Both the position numbers and the translations under genes were made by a program. Below are positions 2,851 to 10,034 of a stretch of 64,000 bases of DNA, in pieces; within the stretch, counting starts at the first letter, position 1, and the number at the start of each line of letters is the position of its first letter. The notes beneath the pieces are model-generated. The model saw only the letters and a program-made list of their open reading frames with translations. It was not told where the DNA came from and did no database searches. This stretch comes from Ectothiorhodospiraceae bacterium WFHF3C12 (GTDB lineage: Bacteria; Pseudomonadota; Gammaproteobacteria; Nitrococcales; Nitrococcaceae): NCBI GenBank assembly GCA_013519935.1, contig JACDUA010000002.1, positions 62,001 through 126,000 of the forward strand, read 5' to 3'.

Positions 2851-4275
2851 TTATCGGTTGTCGCTGAGCGCGGTTACATCGGCCGTGGTCCCGAGGGCCG
2901 ATTCGGTATCCACGGCGCGCTGGCCGATGCCGCTGGCGGTGTCGGCCAGCAGCACCTCGCCGTTGCCGAAGGCCACGCCGCTGGCGCTGCCGCCGGTGCG
3001 GGTGGACAGGGCGATGGTGTCGGCGTCGCGCAGGGTGACCGCGTCCACGTCCGCGCCGTCGTCCAGGCCGAGGGCGGCGGCCGCCAGGAACAGCGAGAAT
3101 GTGCTGCCGTCGTAGCGCACCAGGTCGGCGTCGCTGAAGCTGGTGCCGCCAGCAGAAAAATGAATACTGGTGGAGAAGATCAGGTCGCCGTTGCCGGAAA
3201 CGGTCACGGCATCCACGTCCACGCCGTCGGATAGCCCCGCGGCGCTGGCGTCCAGGGCCAGGCTATAGGTGCCGCTGTCGTAGAGGACCACGTCGCCCGG
3301 GGCCGCTACCGTGCCGCCGAGGTTGGCGTGCTGGTCGAGTGAGAAGTAATAGCGTGAGTCATTGACCCGTTCGTAGGCGTCAACTCCCGCTGGGGTGACG
3401 TTGATGGTACTCAGAATCTGCAGGTCTGAGGACTCGGGCTCATACGCGAGCACATCCACCGGCGTCACGGTCTGGCTGTTCACGGTGGTCGTGGGCGAGA
3501 GTAAGAGATACCAGGCGAAGGTGGGTTGGACCGTCACCGTGACGGTGCCGGAGGCCTGATCACCGTCCGCGTCCTCGATCGTGTACTCGAAGCTGTCCGC
3601 GCCGCTGTAGTCGGCTGCCGGTGCATACGCAATGCTGTCGTCCGTCGGGTCGTCGGGGGTGCCGCCGTCGTTGATCGTGGCGGAGCCGTTGCCGGGCGGG
3701 GTCGACACGGTAATGGCACTGCTGCCGGGACCATCACCACCAAAATCGTCATTGCCGAGCACGTTGACCGTTGTCGCGTTATCGTTCTCCTCGACCGTCA
3801 GGGCATCATCACCGGCTGCCGGCGTATCGTTAACCGAGCTAACGGTGACCGTGACAGTGCCAACCGCGCTGTCGCCGTCGGCGTCCTCGATGACATAGGT
3901 GAAGTTTTCCATGCCGTTGTAATCGGGATCCGGCGTGTACTCGATGGTGTCGTCCGCGGGCGCCGACGGCGTGCCGCCGTCATCGATGGTGGCGGTGCCG
4001 TTGCCGGGCGCCGAGGACAGCGCCAGGGCAACGCTGCCTGGCCCGTCCGTGCCGAAGCTATCGTTGTCCAGGACGTCTATGGTTGTCGCGCCGGCGTCCT
4101 CGTTGATGGACACGCTGTCCTCGACCGCCGATGGCGCGTCTTCAACGGCGCCGTTGCCGCCACCGTCGCCACCACCACCACCTCCGCCGCAGCCGCTCAA
4201 GAGCAGAGCAAACAGGACTGCCGGCGTGGCCAGACGCCGGATCTCCATCGGAATCGCTTGGCTGAGGGCTTTCAT
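2851..4275 (-). CDS. Lipoprotein with two tandem Ig/cadherin-like domains
   Basis: The N-terminus ends in a lipobox, LLLSGC (Cys about residue 29), followed by a glycine-rich linker (GGGGGGDGGGNG), so export and lipidation are expected. Two repeats of about 90 residues follow (roughly 45-130 and 135-225), each with VNVLGNDDFG/IDVLDNDSFG, GNGTATIDDGGTP, Y-x-P-D-x-D-Y-x-G and YxIEDADGD. These are features of Big_9/cadherin-like 'tandem-95' domains that bind calcium. The C-terminal 230 residues hold a further internal duplication around GVDVDAVTVSGNGDLIFST and GADVDAVTLRDADTIALST. GGGG lies 7 bases before ATG 4275; an internal ATG at 4248 lacks a Shine-Dalgarno. It is flanked by paralogous beta-helix genes, suggesting a surface assembly. 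Confidence 0.8.
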   Translation of the reverse strand: MKALSQAIPMEIRRLATPAVLFALLLSGCGGGGGGGDGGGNGAVEDAPSAVEDSVSINEDAGATTIDVLDNDSFGTDGPGSVALALSSAPGNGTATIDDGGTPSAPADDTIEYTPDPDYNGMENFTYVIEDADGDSAVGTVTVTVSSVNDTPAAGDDALTVEENDNATTVNVLGNDDFGGDGPGSSAITVSTPPGNGSATINDGGTPDDPTDDSIAYAPAADYSGADSFEYTIEDADGDQASGTVTVTVQPTFAWYLLLSPTTTVNSQTVTPVDVLAYEPESSDLQILSTINVTPAGVDAYERVNDSRYYFSLDQHANLGGTVAAPGDVVLYDSGTYSLALDASAAGLSDGVDVDAVTVSGNGDLIFSTSIHFSAGGTSFSDADLVRYDGSTFSLFLAAAALGLDDGADVDAVTLRDADTIALSTRTGGSASGVAFGNGEVLLADTASGIGQRAVDTESALGTTADVTALSDNR

Positions 4276-4325: not shown

Positions 4326-5123
4326 TTACGGGCAGACGGCACTGTCGGCGACCACGTTGCAGCCGGTGGTCAGGCCACCCTGCAACTGGTCGCCCGCGCT
4401 GCCGTCGCCGTTGCCGCGGAAAATGTTCTGGGCGTAGGCCGCCGCGGAGGAGCTCGTGTATGAGCGAAGGCCGTTGTCGCCGTTGTGGCTGAAACGGTTG
4501 TGGGTCACGACCCCCGATTGCACGCGGGCCCCGTAACCGCCGTTGCCCCGAATCAGGGAATGGTTCAGTTCCAGCATTGCCTCCAGACCGTAGGCATTGA
4601 TGCCTACCGCGCCGTTGCGAATCACCTTGCAGCCGGTGATTGTCGCGCCCGCGCCCACGTCGATGCCGTCGATGCCGTTGGACGCCACCCGCAGGTTCTC
4701 CAGCCGGGCCGCTGTTCCGACAACGACACCCGTATCGCCGAAGCCGACGACGTTGCCGTTGAAGACGTGTATCCGGCTGTAGGGGTAGCCGTCGATTCCG
4801 ATCCCGGTGCCCGAGGTGGAGCAGGTCGCGGGCGTGCCGCTGCACTCTACCGGTCCGCCGACGGTGAAGCCGTTGAGGTCCAGCGTGACATTATTCGAGT
4901 CGATGACGATGGCCGTGGTCACCGCGTCGGATACGGCCAGGTTTGACGTGAGTACGTAGCTGCCCGAGCTGGCGATCTCCACGGGAAAGCCGGGATCGTC
5001 GCCCGCAAAGCAACCGTCGGGGACGCAGGCCGCGTTGATTTCGATGGCGCCGTCCCCGGCCATCACCGTAGGCAGATAGAAGGCCAGACCAAGCGCCAGA
5101 ATCGTTCCGTTCAACCGTGACAT
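4326..5123 (-). CDS. Secreted right-handed parallel beta-helix protein (copy A)
   Basis: This 265-residue protein starts at ATG 5123 (MSRLNGTILALG), with GGGGAG 9 bases upstream; upstream in-frame codons lack such a site. After a signal peptide ending near VMAGDG it repeats the CFAGDDPGFPVEIASSGSY block of the gene at 2002-2805, then beta-helix turns (VTLDLNGFTV, VFNGNVVGFGDTGV, RLENLRVASNGIDGI, TITGCKVIRNG). The end, GLTTGCNVVADSAVCP, keeps the two cysteines of the paralogue. The pair is clearly homologous across its length but diverged, so the duplication is old. It is the first gene of the run, 50 bases ahead of the lipoprotein gene. Confidence 0.75.
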   Translation of the reverse strand: MSRLNGTILALGLAFYLPTVMAGDGAIEINAACVPDGCFAGDDPGFPVEIASSGSYVLTSNLAVSDAVTTAIVIDSNNVTLDLNGFTVGGPVECSGTPATCSTSGTGIGIDGYPYSRIHVFNGNVVGFGDTGVVVGTAARLENLRVASNGIDGIDVGAGATITGCKVIRNGAVGINAYGLEAMLELNHSLIRGNGGYGARVQSGVVTHNRFSHNGDNGLRSYTSSSAAAYAQNIFRGNGDGSAGDQLQGGLTTGCNVVADSAVCP

Positions 5124-5275
5124 GCGTTGGGCTCCCCGATAGGCGGTGTCCCAAGGCAATATTGAGCCTGCGTTGCCGAGGGACAGGTGAGTTTCTGGAA
5201 ACCTACGGGGTTGGGGGTCGACCCACCACCCCCCGAATAGGGGGGTGCGTCGCCGACGCTGGCCGCGCCGTGGCC

Positions 5276-5683
5276 TCAGGCGTTGTGCCGCTGGTCGGGC
5301 GGGGAGCCGCCTGGTGGCGCCGCGGCCTGCCTGGTCGCCAGGAACTGGTTCAGCTCCGCCTGATCCCGGGCGCGCTGCAGGTCCCGCGCAAAGTCCTCGA
5401 AAGCCGTCTGCTCTTCGGCCAGGCGCCGCTTCTCCGCCTCGATGCGTTCCAGGGTCTCCCGCTTATAGGCGTCGAACGCCATGTTGCCGCTCCGGCGATG
5501 CAGCCGCAGGTGGTCACGCGCGGTCTTTCCGGGCCGCCGGAACGGCCACTTGCCCAGGCGCCAGAGCAGGATAGCCAGGCCGATGGGCCAGAACACGACG
5601 AACCCGACGATCATGGCCGCCAGGGTGGCTGGTCCGTGCGGGTCGGGCATTGGAATCGATGGGAACTGCCACTGATGAATCAT
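5276..5683 (-). CDS. DUF2852 family inner-membrane protein
   Basis: This 135-residue protein starts at ATG 5683 (MIHQWQFPSI), with GAGGGG 6 bases upstream; an alternative TTG at 5704 would lie inside an operator palindrome. One membrane segment (AAMIVGFVVFWPIGLAILLW, about 23-42) is followed by a basic stretch and then a charged helix (FDAYKRETLERIEAEKRRLAEEQ, DFARDLQRARDQAELNQFL). The order WPIGLAILxW - FDxYxxETLxRLExE - FxxxLxxARDxAEFxxFL is that of DUF2852 proteins of unknown function. It is divergent from a PadR regulator across two palindromes, so it is the obvious candidate target of that regulator. Confidence 0.8.
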   Translation of the reverse strand: MIHQWQFPSIPMPDPHGPATLAAMIVGFVVFWPIGLAILLWRLGKWPFRRPGKTARDHLRLHRRSGNMAFDAYKRETLERIEAEKRRLAEEQTAFEDFARDLQRARDQAELNQFLATRQAAAPPGGSPPDQRHNA

Positions 5684-5696
5684 GATTGGCCCCTCT

Positions 5697-5716
5697 ATAT
5701 GCAATTAATTGCATAT
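5697..5716. promoter_or_regulatory. Palindromic operator O1 of the PadR / DUF2852 divergent region
   Basis: ATATGCAATTAATTGCATAT is a perfect 20-base palindrome in an otherwise GC-rich region. It lies between the start of the DUF2852 gene and its putative -10 (CATAAT, reverse strand 5720-5715). A repressor bound here would block transcription. It matches O2 centred 39 bases away in both arms, and the ATGCAA/TTGCAT half-sites fit those described for PadR-family repressors. Confidence 0.75.
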
Positions 5717-5735
5717 TATGGTGCGCCTTGAAGAG

Positions 5736-5755
5736 ATATGCAACAATTTGCATAT
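5736..5755. promoter_or_regulatory. Palindromic operator O2 of the PadR / DUF2852 divergent region
   Basis: ATATGCAACAATTTGCATAT has the same 8-base arms as O1 and a 4-base asymmetric centre. It ends 15 bases before the PadR ATG at 5771 and overlaps the putative -35 (TTGCAT, reverse strand 5743-5738) of the DUF2852 promoter. The placement suggests PadR represses both itself and the divergent gene. Confidence 0.75.
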
Positions 5756-5770
5756 AGAGAAGGAGGGGTC

Positions 5771-6325
5771 ATGTCTTTGAAGTACGTGCTGCTGGTGACG
5801 CTCACCCAGGGCGAGATGACCGGTTACGACATCGCCTCGCGCTTCGACCGGCGTCTGAGCTTCGTCTGGCACGCCACGCATCAACAGGTGTACCGGGAGC
5901 TGCGCAAGCTGGAGGAGGCGGGGCTGGTCCTCCACCGGCTGGAGGGCCAGGCGGAGAAGCCGGACAGGAAGCTCTACCGGCTCACCGCCGAAGGCGAGTC
6001 CGTGCTGCATGCCTGGTTGGTGGCCGACAATGCCTCGACCCCGGCCAAGGTGAAGGAGCCGCTGCTGGTGAAGTGCTTCGCGGGGGATTACATGCCGCCG
6101 CAGGATCTGCTCGCCCAGGTGCGTGAGGCCCGGGAGGGCTACCGGCGGCGGCTGGCGGTCCTGAAGGACATCGAGAAGGGCGCGCGGGCGGACGTGCCCC
6201 GGCCGACGGCCGGACAGACCATGGCGTTCCTGGCCCTGCGCCGCGGCATACGTTCCGCCGAGAGCTGGATCGAGTGGGCCGACGAGGCGGAGCAGGCCCT
6301 GTTGCCATTCATCGACGACGGCTAG
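5771..6325 (+). CDS. PadR-family transcriptional regulator
   Basis: This 184-residue protein has an N-terminal winged helix (MSLKYVLLVTLTQGEMTGYDIASRF, HQQVYRELRKLEEAGLV, PDRKLYRLTAEGE) typical of PadR, and a C-terminal alpha-helical dimerisation region (about 95-180) of the Vir_act_alpha_C type, as in subfamily-1 PadR proteins such as PadR and AphA. The start at 5771 is preceded by AGGAGGGG; upstream in-frame codons lie in the operator. PadR proteins usually repress and release DNA on binding phenolic or other small ligands. The ligand here is unknown. The only evident target besides itself is the divergent DUF2852 gene. Confidence 0.9.
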   Translation: MSLKYVLLVTLTQGEMTGYDIASRFDRRLSFVWHATHQQVYRELRKLEEAGLVLHRLEGQAEKPDRKLYRLTAEGESVLHAWLVADNASTPAKVKEPLLVKCFAGDYMPPQDLLAQVREAREGYRRRLAVLKDIEKGARADVPRPTAGQTMAFLALRRGIRSAESWIEWADEAEQALLPFIDDG

Positions 6326-6566: not shown

Positions 6567-9500
6567 ATGGCGGTTGCGCAGGTATCCCTTCAGGACAAGT
6601 ACACCCTTAACCGGGGACGCATTTTCATCACGGGGTTGCAGGCCCTGGTCCGGCTGCCTCTGATGCAGCGCGCGCTGGACAGCGCGGCGGGCCTGGACAC
6701 GGCCTGCCTGATTTCCGGTTATCGCGGCTCGCCGCTCGGCGGGCTGGATCTCAACCTCTGGCGCGCGGAGACGCTGCTGAAAGCCCAGCGCATCCGCTTC
6801 CAGCCCGGCCTCAACGAGGATCTCGCCGCCACGGCCCTGTGGGGCAGCCAGCAGGTCGGGCTCTCCGGCGACGCCACCGCCGACGGCGTCTTCGGTCTCT
6901 GGTACGGCAAGGGCCCGGGCGTGGACCGCAGCGGTGACGTCTTCCGCCACGCCAACCTGGCGGGAACGGCGCCTCATGGCGGAGTGCTGGCCGTGGCCGG
7001 GGACGATCCCGGCTGCAAGTCGTCCACTTTGCCGAGTCAATGCGAGCACGCCTTCATGGATGTGCAGATGCCGCTGTTGAACCCCGCGGACGTCCAGGAC
7101 GTGCTGGATTTCGGGCTCTACGGCTGGGCGCTGTCCCGCTTCAGCGGCTGCTGGGTGGGCATGAAGATGGTCTCGGAGACCGCCGATGCCTCCGCTTCCG
7201 TATACGTGGATCCCGAGCGCGTGCGGATCGCTCTGCCCGAGGACTTCGAGTTGCCGCCCGACGGCGTGCATATCCGCTGGCCGGACCCGCCCATGGATCA
7301 GGAGAAGCGCCTGCATCGTTACAAGCTCTACGCTGCTCTGGCTTTCGCTCGGGCGAACGGCCTCAACCGCATCATCATGGACAGCCCGCAACCGCGACTC
7401 GGCATCGTCACCACCGGGAAGGCGTTCCTCAACGTTCGCCAGGCACTGGCCGATCTGGGTATCGATGAAACGGAGGCGGCGCGGCTGGGGCTGCGGCTGT
7501 ACAAGGTGGGCATGAGCTGGCCCCTGGAGCGCGACGGAATACGGCGTTTCGCCGAAGGCCTGGAAGAGGTCCTGGTGGTCGAGGAGAAGCGCGCGTTCAT
7601 CGAGAACCAGCTCAAGGAGCAACTCTACAACTGGCGGGAAGACGTCCGTCCGCGCGTGGTGGGCAAGTTCGACGAAGGAGGGGATTGGCTGCTGCCGTCC
7701 ACCGGCGAGCTGACGCCGGCGATGGTGGCGCGGGTCATTGGTGCACGACTCGCCCGGTTCTACACCAGCGCGGCCATGGAGCGGCGCCTGCGCGAGCTGG
7801 CCGAGCGGGAAACCGCCCTCGCCTCCACGCCCGTGCTGGCCGAGCGCCGCCCGCACTTCTGCTCCGGCTGCCCCCACAACACCTCCACCCGGGTGCCCGA
7901 GGGCAGCCGCGCCCTGGCGGGCATCGGCTGCCACTACATGGCCATCTGGATGGACCGGAACACCGAGACGTTCACCCACATGGGCGGGGAGGGCGTGACC
8001 TGGCTGGGCCAGGCGCCGTTCGTCCGCGCGAACCACGTTTTCGCCAACATGGGGGACGGCACCTACGAGCACTCGGGCATCCTGGCCATCCGAGCGGCCG
8101 TCGCGGCAGGTGCGAACATCACCTACAAGATCCTGTACAACGACGCCGTGGCCATGACCGGCGGGCAGCCGGTGGAGGGCGGCCTGTCGGTGGCGCAGAT
8201 CACGCGCGAGCTGCATGCCGAGGGGGTGCGGCGCATCGCCGTCGTCACCGACGCGCCGGAGAAATACCCGTCCGACCCCGGCTTCGCGCCGGAGACCACC
8301 GTGCACGAGCGTCATGAGCTTGACGCGTTGCAGCGGACCCTGCGCGAGACGCCGGGCGTGACGGCGCTGGTCTACGACCAGACCTGCGCGGCCGAGCTGC
8401 GCCGCCGTCGCAAGCGGGGCAAGGCGCCGGACCCGCCCAAGCGGGCGTTCATCAACGAGCGGGTCTGCGAGGGGTGCGGGGACTGCAACGCCAAGTCCAA
8501 TTGCCTGGCGGTGGTGCCGATGGAGACGCCATTCGGCCGCAAGCGCGCCATCGATCAGGGCCAGTGCAACAAGGACTTCAGCTGCCTGGACGGCTTCTGC
8601 CCCAGCTTCGTCACCGTCGAAGGCGGGGAGCTGCGCCGGCCCGAGGCCGCGGCGGGCGGCGACGTGGACTTCCCGGAGGTGCCGGAGCCGCAACGGCCGG
8701 ATAAGGACGGCGTTTACAACATCTTCATCACCGGTGTCGGCGGCACCGGCGTTGTCACCGTCGGGGCGCTGCTGGGCATGGCTGCGCATATTGAAGGGAA
8801 GGGCGTCGGCGTCCTCGACGTCACGGGTCTGGCGCAGAAGTACGGCGCGGTAACCACTCATCTGCGTGTCGGCGACTCCCCCGAGGCCGTCCATGGCGCC
8901 CGTATCCCCACTGGCGAGGCCGATCTGTTGCTCGGTTGCGACCTGGTGGTGTCGGCCTCCAGCGAGAGCCTCTCGGAGCTGGCCGAGGGTGCGGCGGCGG
9001 TCATCAACCGCCATCGCGTCATGCCCTCCGGATTCACCCGCGATCCGGACCTGCCATTCCCCGCTGAAGGCATGGAGCAGCAGATTCGCGGTGCCGTACC
9101 CGAGGGCCGGTACTGGTCAATGGACGCCGCGGACCTGGCTGGCGCGCTACTCGGGGACGCCCTGATGGCCAACGTGTTCCTCATGGGGTTCGCTTACCAG
9201 AAGGGCCTGATTCCGCTGTCGGCGGGGGCCATCGATCAGGCAATCGAGCTCAATGGCGTCGCCGTGGACCGGAACCGCCAGGCCTTTCTCTGGGGGCGAC
9301 GGGCGGCCTTCGACGCGGCCCGCGTAAGGCAAGCCGCGGGGCAGGAGACGGAAACCGGGGCGCGCGGCGCTGCGGCAGAGGATCTGGAGGCCGTGGTCGA
9401 GCGCCGGCGTAACTTCCTCGTGGGCTACCAGAACGAGGCCTACGCGGAGCGCTACGCGAAGCTCGTTGAGCGCGTTCGGCGCGAAGAGGCCCGCCATGTG

Positions 9501-10034
9501 CCGGGCAGCAGCAGTCTGAGCGAGGCGGTGGCGCGGTCTTACTTCCGGCTGCTCGCCTACAAGGACGAGTACGAGGTGGCGCGGCTATACACCGATGGCG
9601 ATTTCCGCGACGCGTTGCGGCGTAACTTCCAGGGGAACTATCGGGTGCGGGTCCACCTGGCCCCGCCGCTGCTCGCCCGAAAAGATCCCGTAACGGGCGA
9701 GCCCCGCAAACGGGCGTTCGGCGCGTGGATAATGCCGTTCATGTCCGTTCTCGCGCGGCTGCGGTTTCTGCGGGGAACGGCGCTGGATCCCTTCGGCTAT
9801 TCGCGGGACCGCCGCCTGGAACATGCGCTGCTCGCCGAGTACGAGTCACTCGTGGACGAGCTCCTCCAGGGGCTGAACGCCGACAACCATGACACAGCCG
9901 TGGCGCTGGCGCGGTTGCCCGAGGACGTGCGCGGCTATGGTCACGTCAAGGCGCGCAACGCGGAGCAGGCCCGCCGGCGGCAGACTGAGCTGCTGGCCCG
10001 GTTCCACGGCGGGCGGGAGCGCGTCGCGGCGTGA
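6567..10034 (+). CDS. Indolepyruvate:ferredoxin oxidoreductase, fused IorA-IorB type
   Basis: This 1155-residue enzyme should decarboxylate aryl or branched 2-oxoacids to acyl-CoA, passing electrons to ferredoxin. Order: pyrimidine domain (YTLNRGRIFITGLQALVRLPLMQ, SGYRGSPLGGLD), a transketolase C-like region, the TPP domain with GCHYMAIWMDR and MGDGTYEHSG (about 450-545), a cysteine-rich iron-sulfur segment at 634-680 (CEGCGDCNAKSNC, then CNKDFSC and CPSF), and the gamma-type domain beginning NIFITGVGGTGVVTVGALLG. A helical C-terminal extension brings it to the length of the long single-chain proteobacterial form. GGGAG precedes ATG 6567. It is monocistronic, with no ferredoxin gene beside it. 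The substrate is likely the transamination product of aromatic or branched amino acids. Confidence 0.93.
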   Translation: MAVAQVSLQDKYTLNRGRIFITGLQALVRLPLMQRALDSAAGLDTACLISGYRGSPLGGLDLNLWRAETLLKAQRIRFQPGLNEDLAATALWGSQQVGLSGDATADGVFGLWYGKGPGVDRSGDVFRHANLAGTAPHGGVLAVAGDDPGCKSSTLPSQCEHAFMDVQMPLLNPADVQDVLDFGLYGWALSRFSGCWVGMKMVSETADASASVYVDPERVRIALPEDFELPPDGVHIRWPDPPMDQEKRLHRYKLYAALAFARANGLNRIIMDSPQPRLGIVTTGKAFLNVRQALADLGIDETEAARLGLRLYKVGMSWPLERDGIRRFAEGLEEVLVVEEKRAFIENQLKEQLYNWREDVRPRVVGKFDEGGDWLLPSTGELTPAMVARVIGARLARFYTSAAMERRLRELAERETALASTPVLAERRPHFCSGCPHNTSTRVPEGSRALAGIGCHYMAIWMDRNTETFTHMGGEGVTWLGQAPFVRANHVFANMGDGTYEHSGILAIRAAVAAGANITYKILYNDAVAMTGGQPVEGGLSVAQITRELHAEGVRRIAVVTDAPEKYPSDPGFAPETTVHERHELDALQRTLRETPGVTALVYDQTCAAELRRRRKRGKAPDPPKRAFINERVCEGCGDCNAKSNCLAVVPMETPFGRKRAIDQGQCNKDFSCLDGFCPSFVTVEGGELRRPEAAAGGDVDFPEVPEPQRPDKDGVYNIFITGVGGTGVVTVGALLGMAAHIEGKGVGVLDVTGLAQKYGAVTTHLRVGDSPEAVHGARIPTGEADLLLGCDLVVSASSESLSELAEGAAAVINRHRVMPSGFTRDPDLPFPAEGMEQQIRGAVPEGRYWSMDAADLAGALLGDALMANVFLMGFAYQKGLIPLSAGAIDQAIELNGVAVDRNRQAFLWGRRAAFDAARVRQAAGQETETGARGAAAEDLEAVVERRRNFLVGYQNEAYAERYAKLVERVRREEARHVPGSSSLSEAVARSYFRLLAYKDEYEVARLYTDGDFRDALRRNFQGNYRVRVHLAPPLLARKDPVTGEPRKRAFGAWIMPFMSVLARLRFLRGTALDPFGYSRDRRLEHALLAEYESLVDELLQGLNADNHDTAVALARLPEDVRGYGHVKARNAEQARRRQTELLARFHGGRERVAA

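Follow-up and report, generated by a model that had tools for sequence, protein, structure and literature searches.

Two palindromes in the gap between padR and the DUF2852 gene

Two matching palindromes separate a PadR-family regulator gene from a divergent DUF2852 gene in Ectothiorhodospiraceae bacterium WFHF3C12, and the question is which protein they bind and whether they serve one of the genes or both. In the 64,000-nucleotide stretch of DNA analyzed here (the window), the gap between the ATG of the DUF2852 gene (5683, reverse strand) and that of padR (5771, forward strand) comprises positions 5684-5770, that is, 87 bases, and its GC content is 41% compared with 67% for the window. Box I, the predicted partner-proximal operator (5697-5716, no strand assigned), is ATATGCAATTAATTGCATAT, a perfect 20-base palindrome; it is 14-33 bases away from the start of DUF2852 and 55-74 bases away from that of padR. 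Box II, the predicted padR-proximal operator (5736-5755, no strand assigned), is ATATGCAACAATTTGCATAT, with perfect 8-base arms around 4 bases. The two are 85% identical and their starts are 39 bases apart. An earlier reading of this DNA, made from the sequence only, had described two such copies at this distance, one of them perfect, in an 87-base divergent gap of GC-rich surroundings, and all of these points were confirmed.

Judged from its letters, the predicted operator motif is one already known, the AphA box, which had gone unnoticed in the sequence-only reading. According to PMC3440409, this box is a 20-bp sequence, ATATGCA-N6-TGCATAT, derived from nine Vibrio species, and PMC6855506 gives the motif obtained by ChIP-seq of AphA as ATGCAA-N4-TTGCAT. 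Both window boxes fit the two motifs exactly (14 of 14 fixed positions of the AphA box in each), which identifies them as AphA boxes. When up to 3 mismatches to ATATGCA-N6-TGCATAT were allowed, Box I and Box II were the sole matches in the window, each with 0 mismatches, while shuffled windows gave a mean of 0.49 matches and reached two in 7 of 100 shuffles. The whole genome (4.6 Mb, 168 contigs) contained 29 matches, and since the other 27 all had 3 mismatches, the two boxes are its only matches at 0, 1 or 2 mismatches. These counts make a chance origin very unlikely, and the uniqueness of the pair fits the expectation for a regulator of one locus.

An AphA-like regulator

The padR gene (5771-6325, forward strand) is preceded by the ribosome-binding site AAGGAGG (5760-5766, forward strand; read from the sequence) and encodes a protein of 184 aa with an N-terminal winged-helix PadR domain (PF03551, 56.2 bits against a Pfam cut-off of 27) and a C-terminal Vir_act_alpha_C domain (PF10400, 70.5 bits against 22.4). 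The solved structure closest in sequence is that of Vibrio cholerae AphA (1YG2; phmmer, E 2.7e-28, residues 1-173), and the stretch HQQVYREL at residues 37-44 is identical in the alignment of the two proteins. In the predicted model (mean pLDDT 89.6; C-terminal helices 110-139 and 147-182), this stretch opens a helix at 37-49, which we take, from general knowledge of the fold, to be the recognition helix of the winged helix. The top Foldseek match of the model was Rv1176c (TM 0.81). Against 1YG2, Foldseek gave E 5.5e-8 with a whole-chain TM of 0.41 and an rmsd of 18.2, while the sequence similarity is full-length, and the poor whole-chain TM perhaps results from different domain angles. Thus an AphA-like stretch at the presumed recognition helix and an AphA box at the putative target are both found for the window PadR.

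The likeness to Vibrio AphA therefore covers the box, the HQQVYREL stretch and the full-length sequence, and negative autoregulation is known for AphA, which represses its own gene (PMC3440409); its own-gene sites are imperfect and about 220-250 bases upstream (table in the same source). At cqsS, two adjacent AphA sites are bound co-operatively (PMC6855506). AphA, however, is a global regulator of quorum sensing whose sites are many and degenerate, whereas the window PadR has two perfect sites at one locus. We rejected the window PadR as an AphA orthologue because 9 Vibrionaceae rows formed a clade with 100/100 support that lacked the window row, in a tree of 62 of the rows scored below, hand-picked to thin near-copies; the window row itself sits on a long branch (1.95) at a weak fork, so that its place is uncertain. 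The many target sites of an AphA orthologue were not found either: the genome has just two sites at up to 2 mismatches, a count from which weaker sites cannot be judged.

The window protein also shares the winged-helix PadR-family architecture with PadR of the Bacillus subtilis PadR-padC system and with LmrR, and differs from them in its putative target, DUF2852, and in its predicted operator, the AphA box. PadR and LmrR bind operators other than the AphA box. At the padC promoter, bound PadR lets go on addition of phenolic acid (background passage in PMC5050560). PADLOC found no defence role for the locus.

Twin boxes before related padR genes

A PadR match was present in 15 of the 54 genomes of the order. 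All seven best matches (at least 117 bits, window included) carry two boxes upstream of padR, with start-to-start spacings of 39 in the window, 38 in G012, 37 in G005, 40 in G009, 41 in G011 and 40 in both G018 and G031, the distal box of G031 being degraded (10/14). For the next seven order matches (L015-L019, L023 and L024; 80-93 bits), an upstream box was found in 0/7, which counts against the main reading given below. Two of the genomes with these matches, G001 and G004, have a perfect box about 1.2 kb from padR, beyond a gene that by eye resembles nitronate monooxygenase. Of the 369 genomes in the class sample, G113 carries two boxes upstream of padR at a spacing of 37 and G060 carries one. 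Sixty of these 369 genomes contain the exact core ATGCAA-N4-TTGCAT, which in G000, G060 and G113 is no more than about 75 bases from an AphA-like padR.

The gene facing padR is another one in these relatives. DUF2306 was above the Pfam cut-off in 6/6 order relatives tested (L009-L014) and is the divergent gene in Halomonas (L117) as well. Elsewhere the divergent gene encodes a short-chain dehydrogenase (SDR; L124), nitronate monooxygenase (L127), Coq4 (L101) or an af470-like monooxygenase (L119), and the neighbour at L135 had no family match. As the twin boxes are kept in relatives whose divergent gene is DUF2306, the boxes follow padR and the partner varies. In the material compared, the pair of PadR and DUF2852 was seen at the window locus only. 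No DUF2306 was found in the window's genome, which fits a swap or a loss; replacement of DUF2306 by DUF2852 in a DUF2306-linked ancestor is a parsimonious reading only, because the long branch and weak fork of the window row leave such descent undecidable by the tree. Our literature search returned nothing on PadR with DUF2306 and nothing relevant on PadR with nitronate monooxygenase.

Given the AphA-box match, the AphA-like protein and the conservation of both boxes before padR relatives, the palindromes are very probably PadR's own operators. The sequence-only reading had them control the pair of genes. The padR half of this proposal stands on the evidence just named; the DUF2852 half is supported in part, since control of DUF2852 is likely by position while the relatives' twin boxes face DUF2306. 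The further suggestion of that reading, that a PadR ligand may point to the role of DUF2852, is speculative.

DUF2852 and its putative regulators

The DUF2852 gene (5276-5683, reverse strand; likely ribosome-binding site GAGGGG at 5690-5695, reverse strand, as read from the sequence) encodes 135 aa matching PF11014 at 74.6 bits (Pfam cut-off 22.5). By hydropathy, the product has a single stretch of strong hydrophobicity, within about residues 16-46, and a charged C-terminal half; it looks like a single-pass membrane protein. Two published reports name DUF2852, with one mention each: the first predicts a periplasmic location for a Brucella member, whose level was lowered in a mapB mutant, and the second tabulates it among proteins of Bradyrhizobium in a study of microoxia.

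DUF2852 was above the cut-off in 6 of the 369 class genomes (the window's included) and in 58 of the 319 genomes of the phylum sample. Each of the five other genomes of this class, the Gammaproteobacteria, has one DUF2852 locus (L029-L033) with a divergent TetR gene, identified by Pfam in four cases and by its sequence in L032; one of these genomes also has a 38-residue partial DUF2852 match above the cut-off (L037), with no TetR gene in view. The gaps of L029-L033 contain two palindromes each, about ATGTGAACA-N2-GTTNACAT by a consensus drawn from those same five gaps, at distances of 64, 65, 55, 65 and 65. The arrangement resembles that of the window: DUF2852 and a regulator gene are divergent, and the gap between them has two palindromic sites. 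At these five loci, however, the regulator is of the TetR type and the sites are unrelated to the AphA box. With a TetR partner in five genomes and a PadR partner here, DUF2852 recurs in pairs with a regulator. At 39 DUF2852 loci outside the window, an AphA-like PadR was not found (tblastn, best E 0.79). These 39 are 9 class places (10 minus the window; three of the 9 are below the Pfam cut-off and one is the 38-residue partial match) and 30 loci among a larger number of phylum-sample places.

Promoter layout and the proposed switch

Strict scans of the gap for sigma-70 promoters and terminators gave no site. By hand, the best divergent promoter is TTGCAT-17-CATAAT, which matches at 8/12 positions: the candidate -35 of the DUF2852 promoter, TTGCAT (5738-5743, reverse strand; 3/6), lies inside Box II, and the candidate -10, CATAAT (5715-5720, reverse strand; 5/6), abuts Box I. 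In the relatives L009, L011, L099, L105 and L113, TATTAT or CATTAT overlaps the distal box with spacers of 17-20, and L043 has TACTAT at the matching place, while L097, L117 and L167 fit less well. The earlier suggestion that the palindromes cover the -35 and the downstream side of the DUF2852 promoter thus gains weak support from the hand-placed elements, with the empty strict scan standing against it. One box on the -35 and the other on the start region would be a repressor layout, which is suggestive only.

Our preferred reading, to which we assign a probability of about 0.78, is a local autoregulated repressor switch in which PadR on both boxes would repress padR as well as DUF2852 until a signal releases it. 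Dimers of the AphA-like PadR would bind both boxes and thereby lie over the DUF2852 promoter, at its likely -35 and its -10/start region, as well as over the stretch just before padR, so that both genes would be held down. A signal, by analogy with other PadR proteins probably a lipophilic or aromatic small molecule, would free PadR, and DUF2852 and padR would both be induced. In this scheme the binding of PadR, its action as a repressor and not an activator, its ligand and what DUF2852 does are all inferred.

There is a modest chance that PadR uses both boxes for autoregulation only, DUF2852 being there by chance and under its own control. That the boxes follow padR, with DUF2306, SDR, nitronate monooxygenase, Coq4 or a monooxygenase as the relatives' divergent genes, agrees with such an arrangement, as does the count of AphA boxes with at least 12 of the 14 fixed positions near DUF2852 elsewhere, which was 0/39 over the loci outside the window. 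It fits less well with the location of Box I, much closer to the DUF2852 start than to that of padR, with a candidate DUF2852 promoter that spans both boxes, and with the retention of two boxes, not one, in the 7 closest order loci. Activation of DUF2852 by a PadR that represses itself is improbable. AphA does act both ways, with positive regulation of vpsT listed in a table of PMC3440409 and activation of tcpPH told in the introduction of PMC6855506, but Box I lies over the presumed start region of DUF2852 and abuts the presumed -10, which is the position of a repressor. Finally, it is barely credible that the palindromes have some other role, as the site of a different regulator, a terminator or an RNA hairpin, or that they arose by chance, for although perfect palindromes have other possible uses and the PadR sites are predictions, no terminator-like site was found in the gap, the window and genome counts speak against chance, and the same sequence precedes padR relatives in several phyla.

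Recognition helix and box in other phyla

The relation between helix and box was then followed beyond the class. A scan of genome contigs with the single PadR sequence returned no relatives, and a scan with alignment A1 found them. Here named genomes were searched with A1 and the single pattern HQQ[IVL]YREL, and the best 80 of 580 confirmed stretches were used. In total, 117 upstream regions (at most 130 bases) were scored, namely the best 80 of 580, 16 order and class loci, and 21 PadR genes of other types; L010, L012, L013 and L014 were omitted because the same loci are present as L105, L097, L099 and L113, and so were L027 and L059-L065 as weak or partial matches. A strong box was defined as at least 12 of the 14 fixed positions.

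A strong box was found for 52 of the 93 relatives with HQQ[IVL]YREL, mostly from the best 80 of 580. Since these 93 rows are largely helix-selected and mutually related, the counts do not represent independent events. The PadR genes without this stretch had a strong box within 130 bases upstream in 0/24 cases. When the Vibrionaceae and Motilimonas were set apart, by hand from the record titles and after the results had been seen (unsplit count, 52/93), the remaining relatives of the same set drawn largely from the best 80 of 580 had the box in 52/68 cases, while shuffles gave a mean of 0.22 and a largest value of 2. The Vibrionaceae and Motilimonas relatives of that set had a strong box within 130 bases in 0/25, which counts against the main reading.

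Among the best 80 of 580 and the order and class loci, rows that bear the box include Cyanobacteria and Gamma-, Beta- and Alphaproteobacteria; further box-bearing rows from the best 80 of 580 are two Actinobacteria bins, one of Dadabacteria and one of Spirochaetes, and single bins may be contaminated. In the cyanobacterial loci L096, L100, L108, L109 and L114, the boxes upstream of padR overlap in 16-base steps, like tandem half-sites, compared with 37-41 in the window's relatives. A separate observation concerns padR genes without the HQQ helix: L025 (G000:C93:5088-5435) and several of L020, L044, L046, L052, L053 and L056-L058 have an AT-rich upstream element with GATATA/TATATC-like halves, possibly a second type of PadR operator.

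The window boxes as such would be ordinary autoregulatory operators of a known type, and the interest lies in the AphA box across phyla and its exchanged partners. A wider reading joins four parts. The AphA box and the HQQ-YREL helix would be an old operator code shared by Cyanobacteria and Proteobacteria and, from single bins, by Actinomycetota, Dadabacteria and Spirochaetes; it would originally have been an autoregulatory switch whose neighbours (DUF2306, DUF2852, nitronate monooxygenase, SDR and Coq4) were freely exchanged; the quorum-sensing regulator of Vibrio would be a late specialist that lost the perfect proximal boxes; and DUF2852 would have come under a PadR switch in this genome and under a TetR switch in others. 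For all parts together we put this tentatively, at a little less than an even chance. In the literature on AphA and PadR binding sites, evolution and autoregulation, we found no account of the AphA box and recognition helix beyond Vibrio.

The comparison names outright the likely operator of an uncharacterised PadR, and extending the binding sequence of Vibrio AphA to relatives in several phyla would let targets be predicted for many PadR genes still unnamed. DUF2852, a family of no known function, is also placed under putative one-locus switches of two unrelated kinds. Capture by both a PadR and a TetR switch would hint at an inducible envelope-response protein, and an inducer screen on either switch would be a direct route to its role.

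Neighbouring genes

Downstream of padR, 6567-10034 encodes a fused indolepyruvate ferredoxin oxidoreductase of 1155 aa (NF009588, 1715.7 bits), and no place in the switch is implied by its position. On the other side of the locus, 2002-2805 and 4326-5159 (both reverse strand) encode two right-handed beta-helix proteins of similar sequence, and between them lies a gene for a protein with bacterial Ig/cadherin-like repeats (2851-4275, reverse strand).
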